Source: Salminus brasiliensis
Taxonomy: Eukaryota > Chordata > Actinopteri > Characiformes > Bryconidae
Direction of reading: 5' to 3'
Assembly (NCBI RefSeq): GCF_030463535.1
Contig: NC_132878.1
Coordinates: 33,249,761-33,313,760, forward strand
DNA length: 64,000 nucleotides
Shown here: positions 14,901 to 37,800 of the stretch, in pieces
How positions within the stretch are numbered: the first letter of the stretch is position 1
Layout: the number at the start of each line of letters is the position of its first letter
Made by a program: the position numbers and the translations under genes
The notes under the pieces: generated by a model
Seen by the model: only the letters and a program-made list of their open reading frames with translations
Databases searched by the model: none
Told to the model about the DNA's origin: nothing

Positions 14901-16757
14901 CAGGTTAAACAAATCAGGCTTTTGAGTGTAATTCACTCAGGTATTATTAGTTTGCAGACAGATTTATCCAATGTTCTATAAATCCTGTCCAACCTGGCAT
15001 GCATTTTGTGGGCAGAGCCTGGGTCAAATAGTACTTAACTGGTTGAAAACAATACTCATCCTGTGGCACAGCAGAACTAATTAAAAGTTTCAGAAACAGC
15101 ACCCTGGCTGACCCAAAGCCCTCTGCTTAGCTCTAAGCACAGTCAAGGGCAGTGTTCCGCAAAAAATAACTATCTAGCGCACTGACCGGCTGAACAGCAA
15201 CCCCTGACCAAGTACTTATGTAAGCTTATAAGAACAAAGAGCAGGGATTTAAAATCCTAGGCTTACTTTTCAGAATTACTTCAAACATCAAGGCTACAGG
15301 TTTTTTCAGACCCACACAGGCTTTACAGAACTTCTGGAAATTCTATTCAGCCTGATTTACGGCTGAAGTGATTAATTAGTAAAGATATTTATTCCAATAT
15401 TTTGTGATGTAGTGATGTAGTGGATGATTTTGTCATGTAACCGTGCTAACATTAGCATGATGGCAAATGCATCGTTGTTTCCAGGCTGCCAATAGCCGGC
15501 TATAACTACGCAGTGCAGCTAGGTACAGGAATCGGAAATTCAGCCTTCCATAGCGACTCTATAGAACTACGTTACAATGTATTAGGCCAGATTGCATTTT
15601 TTGGCAATGTCCTTAAAACAACACCAACATGCTAAACTGAACATAAACTAAATATATGCATAAAAATATTTTATCGAAGGGCATGAGTTTATACTCATCT
15701 TAAAAGTCCAGGTAAACAGTACAGGATTTTACGCTACTCTCCAAAATCAAAACACACTACTGTGGCATTTTTCACATTTCCCACCAAACCAAACAAAAAG
15801 GAAGTGTTCCTCTGTGCTTTACGAATATTTAGATTTTGGCCTGTGTTTAAAAGAACCCCCTTACCAATAAATTAACATGAAATACCACTGCAAGGAGTTT
15901 ATGCTGGTGGTTGGTGTGGCACAACAGGTAACACCACTACCTCCCAGTGAGTTATTAGACCATGTGGGAGTCCAGGGTTAGATTCCCAGTCTGGGTGACT
16001 GTGCTGTGTTACATTAATAATAGTGCTTGGGCAAGACTCCTAACACTGCATTGGCTTACTTCTGTAATACAAGTAACCTTGTAAGACGCTCTGGATAAGA
16101 GTGTCAGCTAAATTCCGTAAATGTGAATGACTCAGTAGCAGCCACCCCCAAGCATGAATTTTGGCATTACTCAGTGTGTGATTTACACAATGCTAATTTG
16201 GTGGGCTATAAACTTTCCTTACTGGTTGGCTACATTAGCCTCATAGCTCCAAACTACATAAGCCAACTTTAGACACCAAACCTCTTGTCTGAATGACTAC
16301 ATTTTAGTTAGGGGGTGGGAGAAGTCCTTTATCAGTGTTCCTTCTCTGTGTGGCAGGCTGTGTGAAGGGCAAGAAGGTTGGCAACAAGTGCTTCCTGGTA
16401 TACCGGATGTACGAGGCGTATGCAGGAGCGTCCCAGAAGTGTCAGGAGCGCGGTGGGCGCATGGCCATGCCCCGGGATCGGCGGGAACAGGAGGCGCTGG
16501 CCGATTACGTGAAGTCTGCATTCCACCCAGGGAACTGGCCCGTGTGGTTGGGCATCAACGACCTGCGCTCTGAAGGTCTTTACCTGTTTGAGGACACCAC
16601 CCGCGTCACATACTTCCAGTGGAGGAAGCACTTCCTGTCCAGCCAGCCAGACGGCGGCAAGCGTGAGAACTGTGTGGCCATGTCGTCTGACGACGGCGAC
16701 TGGTGGGACAATTACTGCGACCGGCGCATGTACTACCTGTGTGAGTTCGATGCTTGA
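8632..16757 (+). CDS. clec11a: C-type lectin domain family 11 member A (stem cell growth factor/osteolectin)
   Basis: Four coding exons were joined at GT-AG sites with matching phase: 8632-8745, 11007-11226, 13403-13594 and 16357-16757 (927 nt, 308 aa; human about 323). Residues 1 to about 20 form a signal peptide ([17 protein letters not shown]). Exon 2 encodes a GRGDTP motif (RGD at residues 46-48), then an acidic stretch and about 18 Pro-Glu dipeptides. Exon 3 encodes a coiled coil ([17 protein letters not shown]). Exon 4 encodes the complete C-type lectin domain: [19 protein letters not shown], a QPD-GG-ENC calcium/sugar-type motif and [10 protein letters not shown], ending MYYLCEF. The order RGD - acidic linker - YVL-RLA-MD helix - GRLEG-C lectin domain is that of CLEC11A, a secreted growth factor for blood progenitors and osteogenesis. 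The donor of exon 2 was chosen at 11227 because only it yields the family's Y-V-L-x-R-L-A junction. Confidence 0.93.
9250..9700 (+). repeat. Interspersed repeat, copy 1
   Basis: Nearly identical to 12401-12835, with scattered substitutions (for example GATCAAGATTTC versus GATTAAGATTTC). Both start near a short palindrome (ATCCATAAGAATTAATATATGGAT) and end near GTGGGTAATTGTGCTG. Similarity is lost sharply beyond these points. The high identity of two copies 3.1 kb apart, both in clec11a introns and in the same orientation, points to a recent insertion pair or segmental copying. I recognise no coding content. Confidence 0.75.
10297..10742. mobile_element. hAT-type MITE with 8-bp target site duplication
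   Basis: The left end TAGGGATGCACCGATACCAC and the right end, read inward, TAGGGTTGCACCGACACAGA are inverted repeats. Both sides are bordered by the identical octamer GTTGCAAG (10289-10296 and 10743-10750). An 8-bp duplication and TAGGG-TGCACCGA ends are typical of hAT elements. It is 446 bp long, contains further inverted CCGATACCGATAC words, and has no transposase. It lies in clec11a intron 1. The perfect target duplication suggests a fairly young insertion. Confidence 0.85.
11227..13402 (+). other. clec11a intron 2
   Basis: The donor is GTGCGT and the acceptor is preceded by a strong pyrimidine tract (CCCTTTTTTTCCAG). It holds CGGTATCGG words at about 11486-11600 resembling the interior of the MITE in intron 1, and the second copy of the interspersed repeat (12401-12835). 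No exon was seen. Confidence 0.75.
12401..12835 (+). repeat. Interspersed repeat, copy 2
   Basis: Second copy of the repeat at 9250-9700, same orientation. It shares long blocks such as GGACAAGAAAACTAAAT and CTACACCTTCGGGTGACTAG. It lacks about 10 bases of copy 1 near 12762 and diverges after 12825. Confidence 0.75.
13595..16356 (+). other. clec11a intron 3
   Basis: The largest intron of the gene (2.76 kb). It carries a tRNA-derived SINE near its end (15907-16130). The rest is single-copy-looking AT-rich DNA in which I see nothing else. Confidence 0.7.
15907..16130 (+). repeat. tRNA-derived SINE, family A
   Basis: It begins GGTGTGGCACAACAGGTAAC, has a degenerate polymerase III box B (GGTTAGATTCCCA) and ends with a GTAACCTTGTAAGACGCTCT body. 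Reverse-complement copies occur at 50011-50207 and 62627-62844; the clearest box B (GGTTCGATTCCCG) is in the 50011 copy. The three copies share head, body and tail, as expected of retroposed SINEs. Confidence 0.75.
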
Positions 16758-19800: not shown

Positions 19801-19806
19801 TTTATT
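19801..19806 (-). promoter_or_regulatory. Candidate poly(A) signal for the SelL gene
   Basis: AATAAA on the minus strand, about 520 bp beyond the SECIS element and the first perfect hexamer I noticed after it. Its use is not shown by the sequence. Confidence 0.3.
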
Positions 19807-21679: not shown

Positions 21680-24600
21680 TTAAGATGAAGCCGAGAGGGC
21701 AGCCAGGATGTGTTCAGCCGAAGGCCGGTCCACTGGGCTCTGACACTGGTGGGAAAAGATCACTGTACCTCCTTCATCCAGCACAAAATCACCACCCATC
21801 TATCAGCCAAAGAGGAGTAGAGAACAGGAGAGAGGTTGACAGCAAGTGAGAGAAAGAAATAAAGAAAACACGACCAACAGAGAATACAATAACAAGACAG
21901 AGGAGGGAATGAAAGAAAACATGTTTTTCTTTCAGTTGGTGTTAAGCAACATTTCCAAGGAATTCTGTTTCATTTGGATTACTGGAGCCCATTCCGTTCA
22001 CATGAGCAGCATTCCAGGAAAGATGCAAGCTCCGATATTCCCCAGATTTAATCAGAAACATTTACAGACTTGTACCTGCAAAAGCTGGGAGCTTATTCAT
22101 CAGTGGTGCTGTCAATGTAGCCTCATGTGCTAAATGTAAAAGGGTACCTGAAAAAGGTCTTCAATAAACTGCGGAGGAACTTGAGGAATGCTCCGCTTGG
22201 TCACATGGTACTTCGCGTAGCTTAGCATGTTGTTGAACTTCATCACTTTAGCAAAGGAGGAGCCCAGAGAGAATGCCTGGTAGACCTAAAGCAACAGAGA
22301 ACAGGAAATGATCACACAGCCGTTACAACAGGGTTCTCTGAACAGGAAGTTTTTTCTGGAGCCAGGAACAGAAAAGTCTAGAATATCTGGTAAAATGTAC
22401 AAATTGTTTTTGAACCTTTGTGAACGCCCTCTTTTCCACCAGCGGTACAGACTGTGTTCAAAGGCTACCCACTCAGAGCACCCAACCGAATAACATGATC
22501 CAATTATCTTGTCACAGCAAAACTAAACTAAAACTAAACTAACAGGATAACAAAAAACTAAAATTAAACAATTAACTAACTAAACTAAACTACACTATTA
22601 ACTAAACTATGTATACCTAAAGCTAGTTCATAATACTAAATTAACTAGCTAACTAAAAAAAACTAAAAACAATGAACTGAAACTTGTAACTATCCATCTA
22701 ATTAAGAAATTAAACTGAGTAATGAAATACAGAATAAAGGGCTTTATTTAGCAATTAGCTACCAAACTCTCTAAGGAACTAAGGAGCTACCTTATCGTCA
22801 CCTATCAATGAATAATTTAATTAGTAAATTAACACATTTACTGATTAAGGAACAGATTAGCTAAATAATGAACAAATTAATAAACTAATCAATCCCCTAA
22901 TTACTACAAGAATGCACAAATATACCAATTGGTAAACAAACTAATGAACTAACAAACAAATATGTTGATGGACAAACTATCCTACTAACGAAAAAATTGA
23001 ACCAACTGACTAGCTAACAACCTTGCTAAAAATTAACTACTAAACTACCCAGTTATTAAACAAATGAACTAAAAGACTATTTAATAATAAGCTATTATAA
23101 AACTAATAAAAATACATCGATTAAATAATTGTGTTAACTAAAATTAATCACTAAGAAATGAACCAATTAGGTAAACAGACTAATTAGACCAATTAGGTAA
23201 ACAAACTAGTGAAGCAAAATGAACAAATGATCTAGAAAGAAACTTAACAAACATAAACTTTTAAACATTTAATATGAGGTTGCAGATTCTCCATGAGGGA
23301 GGGTACTGCACTTTTCTGCATCAGTCCTGTGAAAGCCTGCATGGCTAAAAATATTCTCTGGTAAGGAAAGAGTCCAGTTTGTGTGTGTTTGTGTTTGTCC
23401 ATGTCTCGTGTTCCTGCATGAGACATGTCACGCTCCCAGCACCCAGTGCTGTTTTCCAGAGTTTCTGTTGGTAAGCAAACCGTGCAAGAAATCAATTCCC
23501 AGAATGATTTCTGGGTACAGGTTGTGCTCTTTGGGTGTCAGTTAAGTATGAATCAGACACAATCAAGTGTGTATCTGGTCAATCAGGGACTTGTATGAAC
23601 AGACACCTTAAGGGCCAGAAGCGACTGAGGCCAAACAGCTGAGGCAAAACTTAAACCACACAGCTGAGTCAGGTGGCACAACTCCAAGGCCATGTTCCTG
23701 TTGCTGTCAAAGCAAAGGCTGCCCAGCAACCAAACAAAGTTCTCCAGGGACAGCTGGGCCTTGAAGGCAGTTTGGGCAGCAAAAGGACAATAAGCTATGT
23801 AAACTGACTGATGTTATTTTAGGATCCTCAAACTTCATGAATAGTCTATAGCTCCTGAATAATTCCTATTGCTCTATTACTGCAGTTTAAAATCCCAAAG
23901 AACCACAGCAAACACATACAACCTTCCTCACACATGACTCCAAACACTAGTCACCTTGATTCACCACAGCTAGACATCTAAATTAAGAAGTGTTACAGTT
24001 ATGGGATCCTCAGGTGATGTGTGATTTGTGACCTTTCTGACCTTACGCTCGGGATCAAAGACCATGTCAAAGTCACAGCTGGTCTGAGTCAGCCAAAACT
24101 CTGCCCCCTCCAAAGAACCGTACGAAAGCACCAGAACCCGCACATACTGAGCCTCAAGAGCAGCCTGAGAGGGAGAGAGAAAGAGAAAGAGAGGTGAAGG
24201 TTTCTTGGCACTAAAGGACAGCAGAGAATGTTCCAAATGGAAATGAAATTCCACAGACTTTGGCAACCTTATCACTGCACAGCAGGGCTCTGCCAGGGAA
24301 TGTAGCAAAACATGGAAACAATCAAAGTGAAACTGAGGACTGCAAGGTCAGCAATGTCCAGATTAAAAAAAGGAACCTGAAACCACTGTAATTACAATAT
24401 AATGCTAAAAATAAGATTTTAGGAAAATTATAGGTAGGGTTTGGGTGCTATTGCCAGTTTTTAATCACATGGGGGGGGGGGGGTTATCAGACAAATTTTA
24501 CAGGTGTAATTACAGTATTCAAATATTTTATTACAAAAATAATACAATCAGAACATCAGCATCAGAACAGTGCTTATCCTATCTATAATAAATATATATT

Positions 24601-27600
24601 ATAATAAATGTTAGGCCTGAGTGTAAATGCATGCATCAATTACCCTTTTAAACATATTAACGTTTAGCCATTAGAATCTCTCTCTGACCACAGACTAATA
24701 GCAGGCAAAATGGAGGCAATAAAATTGCGCCAGCTTTTACTAAACCATTTTTCTTACATTTATTTACATTTTTTGCCAGATAAACTCACTGGTTTACAAA
24801 TAATAATTGGTTTACCAATAGTGGCAGGTTGTCAAATTGGGGTATCGAAGCCAAAACCCTGTTCTCATTAACCCAGGGCTCTAACCATAACGGTCATTCA
24901 GTCGTTGAGTTCAGTCTGGCTTAAGAACATGAAACCATTTAAATTCTAAGAAATATGATCCATTCTATTTTTAGATGAACTTAATTCTTCTTTATACAAC
25001 ACAACCATCAGAATTAGCATGAACCATAAACCATATTAAAAATGATAAAAGTGCAGTTCTTACACCATACATATACTGTGCGCATGTCCAGTAACCAACC
25101 GCTCATTGGAATTTTACCTTATTGTCCTGAAGCTCAGTCAGGTGGTCTCGTCACGGCAGTTATCCGAAATGCCTGAGAAGGACCAGCAACAGTTTTTGCC
25201 CTTTACCCAGGTACTGAACCAGAGAAACAGTCCTACACACACACACACACTTATAGAGCATTCAGTACAGTCCTCTCTTAGCCTAACACACAATACAGCT
25301 GCAATTCAAATCAGACTTATCAGCAAAATGTACAAATTTCCGCTGTTTACCATAAATTAATCAAACAAGACCAACTTAAATAGCTCAACACAACTAACAG
25401 AACAAGAGCTTTCTCCATATTTAACACACAATGCCATTTTTAGTGACCACTGCAGTCTCAGAATTATTCAACCCCTGAACAGAAACCCTCATATAAGCAC
25501 ACATTTGCAAATCAGGGGCTTTATTAGTTGCATCAGGTGTGCTGCATCAGCCTCTGCTGGTTGGGGCATCTCTAAGAGTGGAACTGGGGATCTCCTGCTA
25601 ACATGGCCAACTCTTATGGTACGTAGCCACTGCAGGCAAACTTGTCATCCCCAAATGCCACCCCTATTTATTTTCTATGGGTAGTAGCAGACAAATGCGT
25701 GAAGGACCGCCCAACCATTAGCTCTGTCTGCACAGCTCTGTCTGCACGACATGGACAAAAATCAAATAAAGGCCACTGCTCTATTTGATCCTACGCTGCA
25801 AGAATACAGAGACAAAAGTAAAAGAAATGCACAGCATGGAAGAAGGTCTCGGACATCATCAGGGTTCCTAGTGAGTTAAAATACAATGCTGCTTCGCAAT
25901 AATAGCAGGCCAAATACAGACCTTTATTAGAACTATGTTTATGAGAACAGTCTACTCTATTTGAGAAGACCATTCCCCATTACCTTTCATTCCTGATAGC
26001 CATGTTAGCAATCTGCAGAGTGTTCAGCTACTGAGCGTTCTATACCTGATGTGTGGGGAGTAAGGTGTAATACTCACTGTTTAGTTCTGACATCAGTAAG
26101 CTGTAAGTCAGGGCTTAGCATGTGTGCTGGCGGAACGACAGAAAGAGTCCCATCACTCATCTGGGTCTGAGTGTCCAAGCGGGCCAGAAACCCATCCCAC
26201 TTGGCCTGTTGATCAAAAGGAATGTGTTTTGAATTTGAATTTGTGACACAAGTCACTGTTCAGATGGGGGTATAAAAAAACTTTTTTATTCATATTTTCA
26301 TTTTAGACACTAATCAGCTTGAGCTAACATTAGCATGGCATGTTGCTAAAAGCTTGCAGGCAACAGCAAGGGTTCCCCACACTTCATTACGGCTCTTTTA
26401 TCAGTTTACTGTTTATTTATAAATAAAATAAATGATAATTTTTTCTGTATTTAGATGTGATCCAGTCAGCACAAATGATCAGTATGAACATAATAATACA
26501 GTCCACTAATATTTAGCCACATTTTACAAGTGTTGTGATCCGTGCCGTTAAGCTACAAGCCTGGGATTCCTCTGAGCACAAATAAAAGGTTGTTGGGAAA
26601 TGGTAGAGCGAGCATCAGATGAAACACTCTCTCCACCCATTTAAGATGATCTTAATATTAGGAAGCTGTTGAGGACGGTTTCTCTGTATCTGATCACTCT
26701 GTCAGTACTGGTTTCACTGGTGTGTAACTGGGTAGTAACCAGTCACTGCAGACAGAGAGGATTATTTCAGACTTCAGTTTAAAAAATGTGGACGAGTGAC
26801 GCGCTTCAGGGCATTTTTACACCTGAAAGTCCAGAGGAAGGTCTTAACCAAGGCTCATGTTTTTGTTATGTTGTATAACCCTGAACCAGATACTTTTGGT
26901 TTCACACTGCAATTTAGTGAGTGCACCAAAGAACTTCAAGGGTGAGCGTCTGGGGTCAGAGTGTTGTCAACTCGACGGGACTCTCTTTGAGTGCACTAGC
27001 GTCAGACAGCAGAATGAGCGTAACAGATTATGCTCCAAGGAGTCCTTTCATTTCTGTTTAGAAATAAGGGTCAATCAACATTTAAAGTGTAACTGTGTCT
27101 TTAAAAAGATGAAAATATCATGTAAATGTCAAACAAATGATGAGAATGCTGACACGTGACTTTCTTGGTTTTTTTTTTCAGACATCCATTAACATCCAAA
27201 AACCAGTGTGCTTCACAAAGAATCAGAAACACAGTGGCAGTGTTCTGATGTTTGCTATGCTGGAAAATTCAAGAGAAAGAATTATTTAGAAACAGACACA
27301 ACAGAAATTTGCAAGCGAAATCTGTTGCAACTTCCCACACACAAAAGGAGGGTCGGATTTCGGCACAATGCTAGTTATTTTATCCTGCTGTTGTTTCTAG
27401 GTGCCTCATTTCACATCTACTATTTTGGTGCGGATCAAACTGAAAATTCTGAAGATCCGGACCAAAGAAGGTAACCTGCGTCCCAAAGCCTAGACTGCAG
27501 CCGAGGTAGACTGCATTTCTCAGTCGATACGTCATAGAAGGCTGTTCCACAGAGAAGGAACTTTCGTATACAGCCCAGAAATGCAGCCTACGTTCTGTGG

Positions 27601-30600
27601 GTTTTCAAGGCAAATGACGCAACTGATGGATCTTTCCATCTGTCGGTTACCCATAGTTCTCTGCGCACATCTAATAGGAACCCTCCATAACAGAGTTTAA
27701 AACAGTTAAAAATACATTTTTTAGAAGTGTGTGTGAGACCAATAGGCTACTAAGCAGGAGTCTTCATAGGACAGGTCCCACAGAGGATCCGCCCTACCTT
27801 AGCTGCAGCCTAGTGTTTGGAATGCAGCTTTCCTTAGTACCCTTGGAAGTACGGTGAACCAGTTTCGGGTGAAACCTGCGCTTGTGAACTTTAGTTCTGC
27901 ATTACATTCATCAATTTTTGCACACACACATATCGGCTATGTGTACTATGTACTTAATGGGATGCACTAAACCATGATGGTTGGGGGCGAATACACATAC
28001 CGCTACTCCCCTACAACCAATCAATGAAAACACATGCAGAACCAAATAAACTGTGACACAATACAAAATATCAAAGTGACATTTGTAATCCAGATAAAAA
28101 AATCAAATAACTATATTAGAGAGAGAGAATATATATTTAGCATCACATACTTCCAGCTGCACCAACTCTTCAACACTATCCTGGATCTCTGTGTTCCTAA
28201 TAGAAAAGTTAAAGAAAAAATTCAATATAACAATAATGAATTAACTTAATAATTTACTTTATTACTGTGTCAGTTTAACATTACCCACACATATTTACTT
28301 ATCAACACAATCAAATGTGACTGTTCTATTTAGAAAAGGTGTCTCATGTATGAAGGAGATGGCAGTTTCATCTTAGCTTCCAACTTTTCCTAAATTTACA
28401 TGAGTGAAATCAAATGTAATGAAACTGAATTTCCCTCACCAGTCCAGTCTATATAGAGAAAACTTTAACCTACCACAATTTATCCCCGCCCATTCTTATT
28501 CTTATAGGACAGCCAACCAGTGCAAAGTCCATTTCAGTTCTACACCAGGAACTATGCAGCTCCTAACAATATTCCCCTCCCTGTCTGAAATGTTTTAATG
28601 TAAGTTGCTATGGGTAAGAGCATCAGCCGACTGTAAATATTATCTAATATCTGTCCAAGCCTGTTTAATCCTGAGCGTTAACGAAAGGTTGGAAATGTTG
28701 TATAAAAAAAATTAAGACCCTTTTTGAAACATAAAGCTGCACAAATGTTACCAGTGAACCTCAGAGAAAGAAATATAATACAAGAAGATATCGGACTAGG
28801 GCCTTTAAGCTAATACTGTTGTATTGGCCAATATCGCTGGGCTTTGATGCGTTCATGAAACCGAACAGCACATATTGAAACAAACCTTCAGAAAATGCAA
28901 AACGTGTGGGATTTGTCTTCACAGCTGTGAGACCGCATGGGAGAAACATGAGTCTTAAGAAAGAGACATGAGACAGAGACATGCACTTCAAGAATCATGA
29001 TTAATCAAGTGCAACAAGTAAAGCCCCTCTTTCGTTCTTTCTGAAAGTGCTGCTCCCACAGGCTCCCAGCTTCTCCCCTGGTTTTCACAGAAAGGCTGAA
29101 AAATATCAAGAATATTAGCCATACGTAAGGTCAGGCCATGGGGAAAAACATTAGACAGATGATGTCAACAATATGCAAGAGAAAAGTGAATCACGGATGG
29201 AGCAAATATCTGTCTTTCACCTGTTGAAGAAGCTGGCACCTGCAGCCTGTGATCCACCTGCAATCCAAACCTGAGTGAGCCCCTAATGGAAAACAGTCTA
29301 CAGGAATAGTAGGAACAAGACAGGAATGTCTATATCCTATAGACCAATACACACTACACTGGAATCTATCGAACACTTTAACATAGGAGTTGGTGACCTG
29401 ACATAAATACACAATACCTCAAGACAAAGCTGAGCAATATGATGATATTTTTTCATATTGTGATAAATTGTGTTATCGTGATATCAATAAGCTTTTCTAA
29501 GTTTATGGAGGATACTGTTAGTGCATAATAAACACTGATCTGCTGCAGGTTTCAGTAACAACAGACTGTTTTAATCCTCCTCTCAAGGATTCTCCTTCTC
29601 GACCCGAGGAAGTTTTTTTCCAGATCTCTGTAAAGCTGCTTTGTGACAATATTTGTTATGAAAAGCCTATAGAAATACATTTGAATGAAACCGATTTAAA
29701 CTAAACTAATTTGAATGAAACTGAACTGATTTGAATTGAACTGAACTGATTTGAATGAAACTGAACTGATGTGAATAAAACTGAACTGATGTGAATTGAA
29801 CTGATCTGAATTAAACTGATTTAAATGAAACTGAGATTTTAATGACACTAAACTGATTTGAATTGAACTAATTTGAACTGAACTGATCTGAACGAAACTG
29901 AACTGATTTGAATGAAACTGAACTGATTTGAATGAAACTGAACTGATTTGAATGAAACTGAACTGATTTGAATTGAATGAAACTGAACTGATTTGAATGA
30001 AACTTAAGTGATTTGAACTAAACTGAGCTGATTGGTCTTTGAGGTTCACTTCTTTAGTAGGAACAGAAGGTGTTAGAAACAGGAGATGTTGGGAACAGGA
30101 GACGTTAGAAAAAGGAGATGTTGGGAACAGTTGTGTTGGGAACAGTTGTGTTGGGAACAGGAGACGTTGGAAACAGGAGCTGTTGGGAACAGGAGGTGTT
30201 GGGAACAGGAGACGTTGGGAACAGGAGGTGTTGGAAACAGGAGGTGTTGGGAACAGGAGGTGTTGGGAACAGATGTTGGAAACAGGGGGTGTTGGGAACA
30301 GGAGGTGTTGGGAACAGGAGACGTTGGGAACAGGAGACGTTGGGAACAGGAGGTGTTAGGAACAGGAGACGTTGGGAACAGGAGGTGTTGGGAACAGGAG
30401 ACGTTAGAAACAAAAGGTGTTGGGAACAGGAGATGTTAGGAACAGGAGGTGTTGGGAACAGGAGGTGTTGGGAACAGAAGGCGTTAGGAATAGGAGGTGT
30501 TGGGAACAGGAGATGTTGGGGACAGGAGACGTTGAGAACAGGAGACATTAGGGACAGGAGGCGTTGGGAACAGGAGGTGTTGGGAACAGGAGGCGTTAGG

Positions 30601-32558
30601 AACAGGAGGCGTTGGGAACAGGAGGTGTTGGGAATAGGAAACGTGAAAAGTTGTGAACAGGAGGCGTTGGGAATAGGAGGTGTTGGGAACAGGAGGCGTT
30701 GGGAAAAGGAGGTGTTGGGAAAAGGAGGTGTTGGGAACAGGAGGTGTTGGGAACAGGAGACGTTAGGCACAGGAGGCGTTAGGAACAGGAGGTGTTGGGA
30801 ACAGGAGGTGTTGGGAACAGGAGGCGTTAGGAACAGGAGGTGTTGGGAACAGGAGATGTTAGGAACAGGAGGTGTTGGGAACAGGAGGCGTTGGGAACAG
30901 GAGATGTTAGGAACAGGAGACGTTGGGAACAGGAGGTGTTGGGAACAGGAGACGTTAGGCACAGGAGGCGTTAGGAACAGGAGGTGTTGGGAACAGGAGG
31001 TGTTGGGAACAGGAGGCGTTAGGAACAGGAGGTGTTGGAAACAGGAGGTGTTGGGAACAGGGGGTGTTGGGAACAGGAGATGTTAGGAACAGGAGGTGTT
31101 GGGAACAGGAGGCGTTAGGAACAGGAGGTGTTGGGAACAGGAGACGTTGGGAACAGGAGGCGTTGGGAACAGGAGATGTTAGGAACAGGAGACGTTGGGA
31201 ACAGGAGATGTTAGGAACAGGAGACGTTGGGAATAGGAGATGTTAGGAACAGGAGGCGTTAGGGACAGGAGGTGTTGGGAACAGGAGGTGTTAGGAACAG
31301 GAGGTGTTGGGAACAGGAGGCGTTAGGAACAGGAGGTGTTGGGAACAGGGGGTGTTGGGAACAGGAGGTGTTGGGAACAGGAGGTGTTGGGGACAGGAGA
31401 CGTTAGGGACAGGAGGTGTTGGGGACAGGAGACGTTAGGGACAGGAGGTGTTGGGAACAGGAGGCGTTAGGGACAGGAGGCGTTAGGCACAGGAGGTGTT
31501 GGGAACAGGAGGTGTTAGGAACAGGAGGCGTTAGGGACAGGAGACGTTAGGGACAGGAGGTGTTGGGAACAGGGGGTGTTAGGAACAGGAGGCGTTAGGG
31601 ACAGGAGACGTTAGGGACAGGAGGTGTTGGGAACAGGGGGTGTTAGGAACAGGAGGCGTTAGGAACAGGAGGTGTTGGGAACAGGAGGCGTTAGGGACAG
31701 GAGACGTTAGGGACAGGAGACGTTAGGGACAGGAGGTGTTGGGAACAGGGGGTGTTAGGAACAGGAGGCGTTAGGCACAGGAGGTGTTGGGAACAGGAGG
31801 TGTTAGGAACAGGAGGTGTTAGGAACAGGAGACGTTAGGGACAGGAGGTGTTGGGAACAGGAGGCGTTAGGAACAGGAGACGTTAGGGACAGGAGGTGTT
31901 GGGAACAGGAGGCGTTAGGGACAGGAGGCGTTAGGCACAGGAGGTGTTGGGAACAGGAGGCGTTAGGAACAGGAGACGTTAGGGACAGGAGGTGTTGGGA
32001 ACAGGGGGTGTTAGGAACAGGAGGCGTTAGGAACAGGGGGTGTTGGGAACAGGAGGCGTTAGGAACAGGAGGTGTTGGGAACAGGAGGCGTTAGGGACAG
32101 GAGACGTTAGGCTAACGCTGCTCACAAACACTGGACTTCGTGTCACCAATCTCAGCTCTGTAAATACACGCCAACAACATTACTCAGTCCTCTTACAGCA
32201 ATCTTCAACTGTCCGGTGCTGATAACTCAGTGTGTTTTAGCGGGACCCCCTCCATAAAGAGGTCATACACACATCACCACACCTGTCCGCAGAGCTGAGC
32301 GCTAGTGTCTGGACCCGCTACTGGCTTCCTCAGTAAAACGCGGGCTATCGCTCCTAGGAAAGCGGCATACAAACTACAGTACCTCACTCAACAGAGGAAG
32401 TTTTAGCTCAAATACTTAAATAAGGACTGTCTGCGCTGTTTAACTCAACATCTGTTCTGTTTCCGTAGTCTTTTGATAGAGTTTGGTCTTTATTGACGTA
32501 AATAAAACTGGCAACGTTGGCCCAGCGTCTCGTGCCCTTGGTTGATGGACTGCATCAG

Positions 32559-32603
<45 letters not shown>

Positions 32604-33173
32604 AATTACTTGGACAAATGGGTCCAGGAAAACGTACTTTTTTTTATATATTAATTTTTATTTAAAAAAAAAAAATAATAATATAAAATCTCTATAATAA
32701 AAGCATACAGTTCTGTGTGTAAAAATAACTGCTTTTAATCCACTGCGTAAGTCTCACTACTGCTGCTCTCTAATACAGCACGAGCGGTGTCCTGTGCTGG
32801 TGCTGCTGCAGCTCTACTGTGTAAACGGGGAGGAATGTGAAATGTGGGCGCTTAGGAGGGAAACGACCAGCTGCAGAAACAGAAACAGGACACAAATCAT
32901 TCCTGACAAAAACAGAGCATGGCATCACCTGAATCCAGTTAAGTTAGTGCAAATACAGCAGAAGAGAAACAAACACATGCTCGACAACAGCAGCTGGGCC
33001 TCCTCTGCTTGATGCTCTGCTGCCCTGGTCATGTGGGTTTGGTGAGCAGGCTCCAGTTGGGCTGTAAGGCTGTTCGACTCACCCTGAGCTAGCTTTTTCT
33101 CCACGCCGTCCAGCTGAGCGCGTCCAACGCTGACCAGCTCTCTCAGTGCTTTAATGGGCGAGATTTTGCCCAC
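21680..33173 (-). CDS. selenol: Selenoprotein L (UxxU thioredoxin-fold/Prx-like-2), first Sec codon is TAA
   Basis: Seven minus-strand exons join in phase: 33083-33173, 32283-32353, 26078-26205, 25118-25232, 24042-24164, 22148-22285 and 21680-21799 (786 nt, 261 codons plus stop). The last five exons are certain by family. They read AKWDGFLARLDTQT, then LTDVRTKQTVSLVQYLGKG, LLLVLLRHFG-[TAA]-LP-[TGA]-RDHLTELQ, VRVLVLSYGSLEGAEFWL, DFDMVFDPERK, YQAFSLGSSFAKVM, and MGGDFVLDEGGTVIFSH to the end. The fold and order are those of Prx-like-2 proteins, with the CxxC position occupied by the UxxU motif that defines SelL, a selenoprotein of fish and other aquatic animals reported to form a diselenide bond. 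Residue 124 is TGA, the Sec codon; residue 121 is TAA, which tRNA-Sec should not read. A SECIS follows 1.3 kb downstream. The two N-terminal exons are inferred from phase and splice sites only. The start is GTG. Confidence 0.82.
22286..24041 (-). other. SelL intron with degenerate CTAAA-rich sequence
   Basis: Intron between the exons ending DPERK and starting VYQAF. From about 22520 to 23230 it is made of irregular CTAAA/TTAACTAA words (cryptic simple repeat). Nothing else is recognised. Confidence 0.6.
24165..26077 (-). other. SelL introns around the redox-motif exon
   Basis: Intron 24165-25117 has a poly-G run on the plus strand at 24473-24483. Intron 25233-26077 ends with a (TG)n tract directly at the acceptor of the UxxU exon (plus-strand CA repeat at 25235-25251). 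No other exon is needed for phase continuity. Confidence 0.65.
25151..25162 (-). other. selenol: UxxU redox motif codons: TAA-CTG-CCG-TGA
   Basis: The TAA occupies 25160-25162 and the TGA 25151-25153 (read on the minus strand). Both lie in the exon 25118-25232, in the frame fixed on the left by QTVSLVQYLGKG and on the right by RDHLTELQDNK. In Prx-like-2 relatives these two positions are the redox pair (Cys or Sec). Neither of the other two frames gives a family-like product, so both in-frame stops belong to the true reading frame. A single G-to-A change would convert the expected TGA into this TAA. Confidence 0.85.
27477..27826. mobile_element. Short TIR element (MITE-like)
   Basis: The left edge TGCGTCCCAAAGCCTAGACT and the right edge, read inward, TGCATTCCAAACACTAGGCT continue as imperfect inverted copies for about 32 bp (through GCAGC-AGGTA). 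The inside has no coding potential. A clear target duplication was not identified. Confidence 0.55.
29680..30022. repeat. 20-bp minisatellite
   Basis: Tandem units of CTGAACTGATTTGAATGAAA, best preserved at 29880-29990 and decaying to the left. The minus-strand open frame across it is a by-product of the repeat. Confidence 0.85.
30057..32113. repeat. 16-bp G-rich minisatellite, about 2.06 kb
   Basis: About 128 tandem units of GGAACAGGAGGTGTTG with a few variant positions (GGTGTT, GGCGTT, GACGTT, GATGTT; GGGAACAGG, AGGAACAGG, AGGGACAGG). Because 16 is not a multiple of 3, the array cycles through all three frames with a 48-bp period. Since the unit rarely makes stops, it creates long open frames on both strands (322 and 285 codons) that repeat a 16-residue peptide. 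The left half is dominated by GGGAACAGG units and the right half (from about 31380) by AGGGACAGG variants, with a 64-bp higher-order unit visible at 31518-31680. It lies in an intron of the SelL gene, 170 bp from the inferred exon 2. Confidence 0.95.
32283..33173 (-). CDS. selenol: Candidate N-terminal exons of the SelL gene
   Basis: Exon 33083-33173 encodes G-KISPIKALRELVSVGRAQ and LDGVEKKLAQ, an amphipathic helix-like stretch, and ends in a strong donor (CAGG/GTGAGT) in phase 1. Exon 32283-32353 has a good acceptor (CGCTTTCCTAG) and donor (GACAG/GTGTGG), enters in phase 1, leaves in phase 0, and so connects without a frame change to the sure exon starting AKWDGF. The first codon is GTG with G at -3 and +4; an in-frame TGA lies three codons upstream and there is no ATG in either exon. 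I do not recognise the N-terminal sequence itself. A different, unseen first exon is possible. Confidence 0.45.
32562..32600. repeat. (GT)n microsatellite
   Basis: About 19 GT units between the inferred first two exons of the SelL gene. An A/T-rich stretch follows at 32640-32700. Confidence 0.9.
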
Positions 33174-34803: not shown

Positions 34804-37800
34804 TTAAGATTTTTTGGGACAGTGGGAGGAAGAGTCAGTGTTCAGGACTTCGATCATGGTTCTGGAAAACTGGAATGTCTCCGCTACAGATGGAAGGTTC
34901 TGATACCAACTCGGCAAACTGGAGAAAAACAGAGGGGGGAAAAAAAGGTGAGAAGGACAGTGAGCAGGACCGTCAACACCAATATGACAGTAATGGCTGG
35001 GGATGCATTCGGTGTTAATCTCATCAACACAATTAATGATATAAATGTATATGAACACTATAGAGACAGGGGCAACACACTGGTTCATGGTCTCTTCTGA
35101 AATCAAGGGTATTACAATGAGTTTATCCTGCTTTTGTTGGAGTAACTGTTTCTACTGTCCAGAAAAGAAGGCTTTCTGCTAGATTTTGGAGCATTGCTAG
35201 GAGGATTTCATTGCATTCAGCGACAGGATGTTGGATGATCACCACCCCACATCATCCCCAACTCATCCCAAAAGTATTAGATGGAGCACCATGTTTCTCC
35301 TATTTTATTGGCAATACTTCTCTACAGGGACTAGACAAGCTGTGGGTGTGCACTTGCACATCTGTGTCAGCAATGGGTGCAATTGAAAGTAGCTGAATGC
35401 CTATAGTATAAGGGGTGCCCACAAACATTGGGACATATAGTGTATATCTGACAGGTGCCACTGTAAGTAGATAATCAGGGTTATTCACTGCACCTGTCAG
35501 TGATTTTACTGTAAGCCATTTCAGTCGTCATAAAACACTAAAATTGAGTAAAACAAAAAGATTCACCACTGTGCGCAATCACATCAACATAGGACAGATG
35601 GCATGTTTATTGACTACTGCACTAAAATTATATTCATTTTACTTCTCTTGTAACCCCAGAATAAATGATAAGATTTCTTGGTTTATGTAGCAGCATCAGC
35701 AGATGTGTACATGAAAAACATCACATCAGCCAACATTTCCATGTGTGTTTAATTATAAAAATGGGCTGTCACTATTTTACACTTATATAACTAATCAGAT
35801 CGTCTGTAGTTTTAGTTGTTATCACAATAGAAAAGTGATTTAACTGAACATTACAAAATATATATATATATTTTTAAGAAGCCCTCACATCAAAATATAA
35901 ATCACTTATATTTTATACTTCAAATGATAAAATGCAAAAAAAGTTCCAAGTATAACAACCATTCCTCAGGGTAACAGGGTTGAATAAACATCATCTTTCA
36001 GTTTTGAACTTTGTATTTGGCAAAGCAGTTTCAGTATAGGGACTAATGTGCACCTTGTTCTGACTGGAATGACAAAACCAAAACCCTCCCATTATAATAA
36101 CAGAGCTACGTCTGGTTATAAAGTACCCTGATTACACCAGTAACACTAAGGAATCTTCAGGAAAAAAACCAAAACAAAACACAGCTCAGCGTATCGCTAA
36201 AAGCCAAAAAACACACATCACTGGAGAACAGTTTGTGCTGCCATTAAATAAGCATGATGGTACATGCTTGTTTAATGCGCCCGACATTTCAGCAGTTGGA
36301 TTGTATTCATTATAAACATCTGTGGGGGCTCTGGCTGCAAAACATTTAAGAACACCCAAGGTTTTTTTTTTTATTATCCTCCCTCTATTGTTTTTATTTT
36401 AGAAAAATAAATTAATTGAACAATGAAAATAAAAAAATGAGAGCTCATTTTTAATGGAAACTGCTGCAGTGCTGGAAGTTTCAGCTAGTAATTCTGAGCT
36501 TTCCTGTGATTTGTTTACATTTGCACGACATTTAGACATGTCTGGTGCAGACTAAAGTGATGTGATGACACATTGGGATACTTGGGAAACACATTGGGAG
36601 AAGAAAATTGAGTAATCTTGACAGCCCTCTGACATGTTGCACAGCACTAAGAAGAAACAGACAGACAGACAAATGAATAAATAAACAAACTCATTTTAAG
36701 CAGTTCTGCAAAGTCTCACCTCTTAAGGTTCATCCAGCTTTTGGTGGTTTTACTGAAGCGATCAGGACTGGGTGTGGTCATGGCCTCAAAGTCCACCAGC
36801 TGGAAGATGAACCATAACTGTTTATTGCATTCACACAAACACTTGTTCAAAATGAGCTGTTCTCTAACAGACTGCTGACTATTAGCTGTCGACTGCTGGG
36901 AGAACGTACAATGAGATTATGAAATTGCCTTTAGGGCAATTAGGGCTAGGCTTAAAGAAAGACTTCAGTAAAGTCAACTCCCTTTTGACTTTTCTCACAT
37001 ATGTTTGATCAACCAGGACAGGTCTGGTGTCTAAAGTTGGCTCATTGGCTAAATGTAGCTGGCTAATGTAGCTGGAAAGTAATGGAAGCTTACAGCCACC
37101 AATTGGAATCACGGAAACAGTGTGGCTGTATTCAGGAGTCTATAATAGACTTGCTTATGTGGTTTTGACGTTACCTTTCCAGATGGGATTCGGCCTACCA
37201 CCTCTTTGCCACTAGCCATCAGCGCTCCCATCACGACGGAGTAAGCCACAATACTGCAGGACAAAAGCACACAAAATTTATTCCTAACTGAACTGTTAAA
37301 GATAGACCTAATTATAAGACTTCTAGTCTCCACCTTCTTAAAGGCCCTCCATCATGACAATCTAAAACTCGCTCACTTCATTAAAATAAAGACATTTGAA
37401 GTAACATAATTGTTAAAATGTCAAAACCTCCTGTTTACTACGCCAGTCTGAACTGTCCATACAAGGAAATAAAGTAAACAGCCCATTTTGAATGAACTGC
37501 TTCTCTGGTGAAAACCAACTTATTTACATATGTTGCAAGGTTTAAAAGCCTATTTCATGCGAAGGGATGAGCAGCAGTTGTGAAAAAATGAATTATGACA
37601 CAAGTGGACCTTAAGGAAACATAAAAAATAAATCCATAAAAAGTGTAGGATATGGGCCCTATATAAAACTAGTAAAACCTCTTCACACACACTTAGGTGA
37701 CCCAAAGCAAACCACACAAGCTCACAACAGCATGTGACATGAACTGCAGTGTGCTTTATATAATACTGTTACCACCGTTCACAAGAATGGCAGCAGTGAA

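Follow-up and report, generated by a model that had tools for sequence, protein, structure and literature searches.

A TAA codon at the first selenocysteine position of a selenoprotein L gene in Salminus brasiliensis: a probable loss of function

Among vertebrates, selenoprotein L (SelL) is reported from fishes only, and its two selenocysteine (Sec) residues are described as being served by a single SECIS (PMC3316567). It is presented as a Prx-like protein containing two Sec residues, for which a diselenide has been discussed (PMC2397514). A multi-exon SelL-type gene with an intact frame lies on the minus strand of the 64-kb stretch of Salminus brasiliensis DNA analysed here (the window), and the first Sec codon of its UxxU motif is TAA. 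Has this gene lost its function, does it make a selenoprotein by an unusual route, or is the TAA an error of the assembly?

Seven exons, the first of them tentative, could be joined into a single frame of 241 residues: 33083-33148 (tentative), 28151-28188, 26078-26205, 25118-25232, 24042-24164, 22148-22285 and 21680-21799, all on the minus strand, the last coding exon carrying the stop codon TAA at 21682-21680. All six introns of the model have GT-AG ends. The fourth exon (25232-25118, 115 nt) holds the motif and, translated in the joined frame, reads ...LLLVLLRHFG-TAA-LP-TGA-RDHLTELQDNK, with the TAA at 25162-25160 and the second Sec codon, TGA, at 25153-25151; these two codons are the only in-frame stops ahead of the final TAA. 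The protein matches AhpC-TSA_2 (PF13911, E=1.1e-14) and AhpC-TSA (PF00578, E=1.8e-10) in Pfam, and a bacterial UxxU protein (L005) in blastp (E=2e-30, 35% identity over 162 residues). Solved structures gave weak matches only, to peroxiredoxins (best E=0.0017) and to a prostamide/prostaglandin F synthase (E=0.0066). The reading frame is fixed by the Pfam matches and by the homology to the bacterial UxxU protein. A sequence-only reading of this DNA had identified the gene as SelL, with this TAA and this TGA in RHFG-TAA-LP-TGA-RDHL and with frame and splice sites intact, and on each of these points the letters, the coordinates and the homology agree with it. It had also placed the end of a terminated product at residue 120, which our model does not confirm: there are 100 residues ahead of the TAA in it, and its candidate first exon has no ATG. 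By its sequence the locus is a SelL homologue by descent that, as a working SelL, fails one defining feature: the AhpC/TSA-like domain and the second Sec codon are present, and the first Sec codon is not.

About 1.3 kb past the SelL stop, at 20387-20345 of the minus strand, lies a SECIS-like stem-loop with ATGA, an 11-position helix containing one mismatch, AA opening the apical loop and a closing TGA, and a single polyadenylation-type signal stands 3' of it, at 19806. Run over both strands of the window, our own scanner for such elements returned this ATGA-type match and one GTGA-type match (36998). In 20 dinucleotide shuffles it found 0.15 ATGA-type matches per 64-kb strand, and of 1000 shuffled versions of the 2 kb that follow the SelL stop two contained a match, figures that have to be read with the post hoc nature of the scanner, whose criteria were composed after the element had been spotted by eye. 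A search of Rfam reported no SECIS at this element. Because the scanner is post hoc and Rfam is silent, the SECIS call rests on the core features, and it is in this conserved core that the element is intact, as had been claimed from the letters, though with no position given.

Elsewhere in the window, a neighbouring gene lies upstream, also on the minus strand; its last coding exon, a C-terminal exon, occupies 34806-34920, ends at 34806 and resembles TTC13. A TPR match lies in the frame 45477-45223. On the plus strand, there is a C-type lectin exon at 16308-16754 (PF00059, 3.5e-17) and a UnaL2 LINE 3' element at 16068-16121 (48.1 bits, under the gathering score of 55).

How constrained is the position at which the TAA stands? 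Scanning of the genome_contigs DNA for motifs of the RHFGUxxUR[DE] type gave 21 bacterial stretches and, in viral contigs, four loci; only L005 (35%, 2e-30) and L003 (28%, 5e-18) were judged to be true relatives. A tblastn search of plasmids found nothing. In a follow-up search of 396 genomes of the phylum of L005, 172 had a match, and the 30 best-scoring loci together with L003 gave 31 bacterial sequences. At the first position of the motif, 29 of them have Sec and two have Cys; at the fourth, 27 have Cys and four have Sec. UxxC with Sec first is seen in 25 of the 31, and UxxU is found in L070, L073, L074 and L003. Since L003 and L005/L070 were found by a pattern that demands UxxU, a less biased count excludes them; in the remaining 29, the first position is U in 27 and C in two, and the fourth is C in 27 and U in two, although Cys forms are probably under-counted because these loci are the ones that scored best against a query containing U. 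Over an alignment of 17 of the 31 sequences (all but L079, a Cys form, and L089-L101), identity to the fish protein is 23-35% across 146-178 aligned residues. Nine columns are invariant in the 17 sequences when Sec and Cys are pooled, and the fish protein keeps eight, missing only the one at the TAA codon. It is not perfectly conserved, since of nine columns that are nearly invariant (at least 85% of the 17 sequences) it matches five and differs in four. From the counts at the first position and from the invariant columns, we conclude that the TAA is a lesion on the most constrained position of the motif; the more variable fourth position retains its TGA. The view that the first Sec of UxxU is affected is therefore strengthened, the residue hit being the more conserved Sec of the motif in bacterial relatives. 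By analogy with thioredoxin-like CxxC chemistry, the first residue would attack and the fourth would resolve. One weak bacterial match (G011:C2:130916-131350) has one TGA and one TAA inside.

A second exon or gene copy supplying the UxxU motif was rejected after searches of the window and of the host genome. Over the window, the only tblastn matches better than E=0.04 were exons of the same SelL gene. A protein search of the host genome (1,066,335,885 bases in 103 contigs) with SelL returned five matches, all of them exons of this gene, the short exons being missed by the search, and a DNA pattern for the motif allowing up to three mismatches occurred at one place only in that genome. No other exon supplying the motif was thus found in either the window or the host genome.

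We consider the gene to be a genuine null allele or a very young SelL pseudogene, with a probability of roughly three in four, and prefer this interpretation of the locus to all others; most likely the change is a recent loss of function and not a novel form of decoding. If the first Sec codon was formerly TGA, a single G-to-A substitution would account for the TAA; that TGA was the ancestral codon is what we infer from bacteria rather than from fish. Release factor would then terminate translation at the UAA, ahead of the motif. The SECIS would be unable to rescue the codon, because the anticodon of Sec-tRNA, UCA, does not pair with UAA, and since exon junctions lie downstream of the UAA, the mRNA is expected to be a target of nonsense-mediated decay. 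No diselenide protein would be made from the TAA allele, a null that may be segregating or may be fixed as a very young unitary pseudogene. There is a human counterpart: a SELENON variant with the Sec codon TGA changed to TAA, giving a premature stop, is among the variants listed as pathogenic or likely pathogenic in one report (PMC8584023). The fish gene shows the same pattern of a Sec codon turned into TAA in an otherwise intact gene, allowing for a tentative start codon and for an ancestral TGA deduced from bacterial relatives, and the codon change, from Sec to a true stop, is identical. The human variant, however, is a disease allele of another protein, whereas the TAA of the fish stands in the only copy found in the genome and is followed, three codons on, by a second Sec codon. 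What counts against a null is that, apart from the tentative start codon, SelL has no second lesion; the kept second TGA and the SECIS are also expected of a working gene.

The TAA could instead be a consensus error of one base in the assembly, with the animal itself carrying TGA and making a normal SelL. This we regard as unlikely, though as the most probable of the rivals. It would fit a lone change in an otherwise intact reading frame, but the assembly is contiguous (1.07 Gb in 103 contigs), the window contains no N, and a substitution error falling exactly on a Sec codon would be improbable a priori. Other selenoprotein genes of the same genome also argue against it. Among 16 glutathione peroxidase (GPx) exon matches, six have an in-frame TGA, each at NVAxxUG, and among seven deiodinase matches, five have one, the four U-PPF codons found all being TGA and one match (L068) having a further, unplaced in-frame TGA; none of these 23 matches has a TAA or TAG breaking the frame. 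A search with SelP_C (PF04593) gave no match, and its control was equally silent.

It is also conceivable, with a rather small probability, that the decay of the gene predates the TAA, the start codon having been lost and the motif exon's acceptor having eroded to (TG)n, so that the TAA came late and was neutral. There is no ATG between 33316 and 33083 of the minus strand, that is, in the tentative first exon and about 170 nt upstream of it, and although no donor of the gene scores higher on a splice-site matrix than the one of this exon (33148-33083; 6.1), its acceptor is poor (-4.6). The acceptor of the motif exon (25233-25252, minus strand) scores no better (-4.5), having a (TG)n run right before its TAG and no T tract, which may weaken inclusion of the exon. 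Against early decay, eight of the nine invariant residues and all frames are intact, and the first exon may simply have been mis-assigned: an alternative start, the ATG at 33032 with a donor scoring 3.3, is in a frame that fits an acceptor at 28196, which scores 7.4 as compared to 1.2 for the acceptor at 28188 used in our model. Either the SelL start codon is also lost or the first exon is mis-assigned, for example because the true start is the ATG at 33032; were the start codon gone, early decay would gain in probability. The intron between the tentative first and the second exon contains tandem arrays within 29698-32103, one of a 20-bp unit in about 17 copies and one of a 16-bp unit in about 128 copies.

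If loss of function began with the TAA, its age can be bounded because no further lesion is seen, a bound that is valid only with the start codon intact. Assuming that the TAA removed all constraint, and counting 663 nt of coding sequence and 12 splice dinucleotides, there are about 70-114 disabling targets per unit divergence, and the divergence since the loss is bounded at about 0.026-0.043 per site (95%). If 3-6e-9 per site and year is taken as the rate, with indel ratios that are likewise assumed, this corresponds to roughly 4-14 million years. The change looks isolated and recent, as had been proposed: the frame, the splice dinucleotides, the second TGA and the core of the SECIS are all kept.

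Recoding of the UAA, its routes taken together, is very unlikely, and a SelL that works as an editing-gated or UAA-decoded selenoenzyme, drawing the first Sec of its diselenide pair from a genomic UAA, is less likely again. Editing of the middle base from A to I would yield a UGA-like codon to be read as Sec, and the gene is otherwise intact, with SECIS and second UGA kept. A U as 5' neighbour, as found here, suits ADAR. Both local folds, however, place the TAA codon unpaired in a predicted hairpin loop, and in a duplex scan whose centre was the T of TAA, one base off the A concerned, and which covered partners up to 2.5 kb away, the best partner (-36.5 kcal/mol) was bettered at 8 of 40 random sites of the SelL gene. 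Editing of a selenoprotein pre-mRNA has a reported precedent in SELENON, at a splice site (PMC9076623). With the codon in a loop and no exceptional duplex partner within 2.5 kb, A-to-I editing, which had been put forward as a way of restoring a UGA-like codon, gains no support and must be held even less probable than recoding as a whole. Least probable of all is direct decoding of the UAA, whether a variant tRNA-Sec inserts Sec there or readthrough inserts some other residue, which would leave a protein with one Sec: the otherwise intact gene would allow it, species that insert Sec at UAA or UAG and have a tRNA-Sec to match are reported (PMC10778597), as is a human heterozygote for a C35T variant of tRNA-Sec with a TTA anticodon (PMC8584023), but of 33 tRNA-Sec family matches in the host genome, the only one above the cut-off has the anticodon TCA, and another residue at the first position would probably not work, since U or C stands there in 31 of 31 relatives. 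A further 14 of the 33 matches proved to be tRNA-Ser, so that no tRNA-Sec with a UUA anticodon was seen among the 15 of 33 looked at; the earlier suggestion of a recoded UAA finds no backing here in a tRNA-Sec that reads it. A genome-wide change of the Sec codon was ruled out, all ten other Sec codons placed (six GPx, four deiodinase) being TGA.

The preferred reading, loss of function, leaves a gene that resembles fish SelL in domain family, in motif spacing, in the single SECIS 3' of the stop and in the second TGA, and differs from it in the first Sec codon, TAA in S. brasiliensis; the UxxU motif cannot, because of this codon, be made by standard decoding. With the bacterial UxxU and UxxC SelL-like proteins it shares eight of nine invariant residues (17 sequences), and it differs from them in having a stop where all 31 have U or C. 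No fish SelL with TAA was reported in the published titles and abstracts that we searched. It is a known kind of event, in a gene for which the literature search showed no such description. For annotation it carries a warning, as SelL will be called truncated by tools that accept TGA only, whereas the loss will go unseen where every stop is masked.

If real, the TAA would show an early phase in the loss of a selenoprotein whose gene, among vertebrates, is known in fishes alone: the more conserved Sec is gone, but the second Sec codon and the SECIS have both survived. It would also offer a clean test of codon specificity, in which UAA precedes UGA by three codons and a single SECIS serves both, and a natural experiment on the dispensability of SelL.
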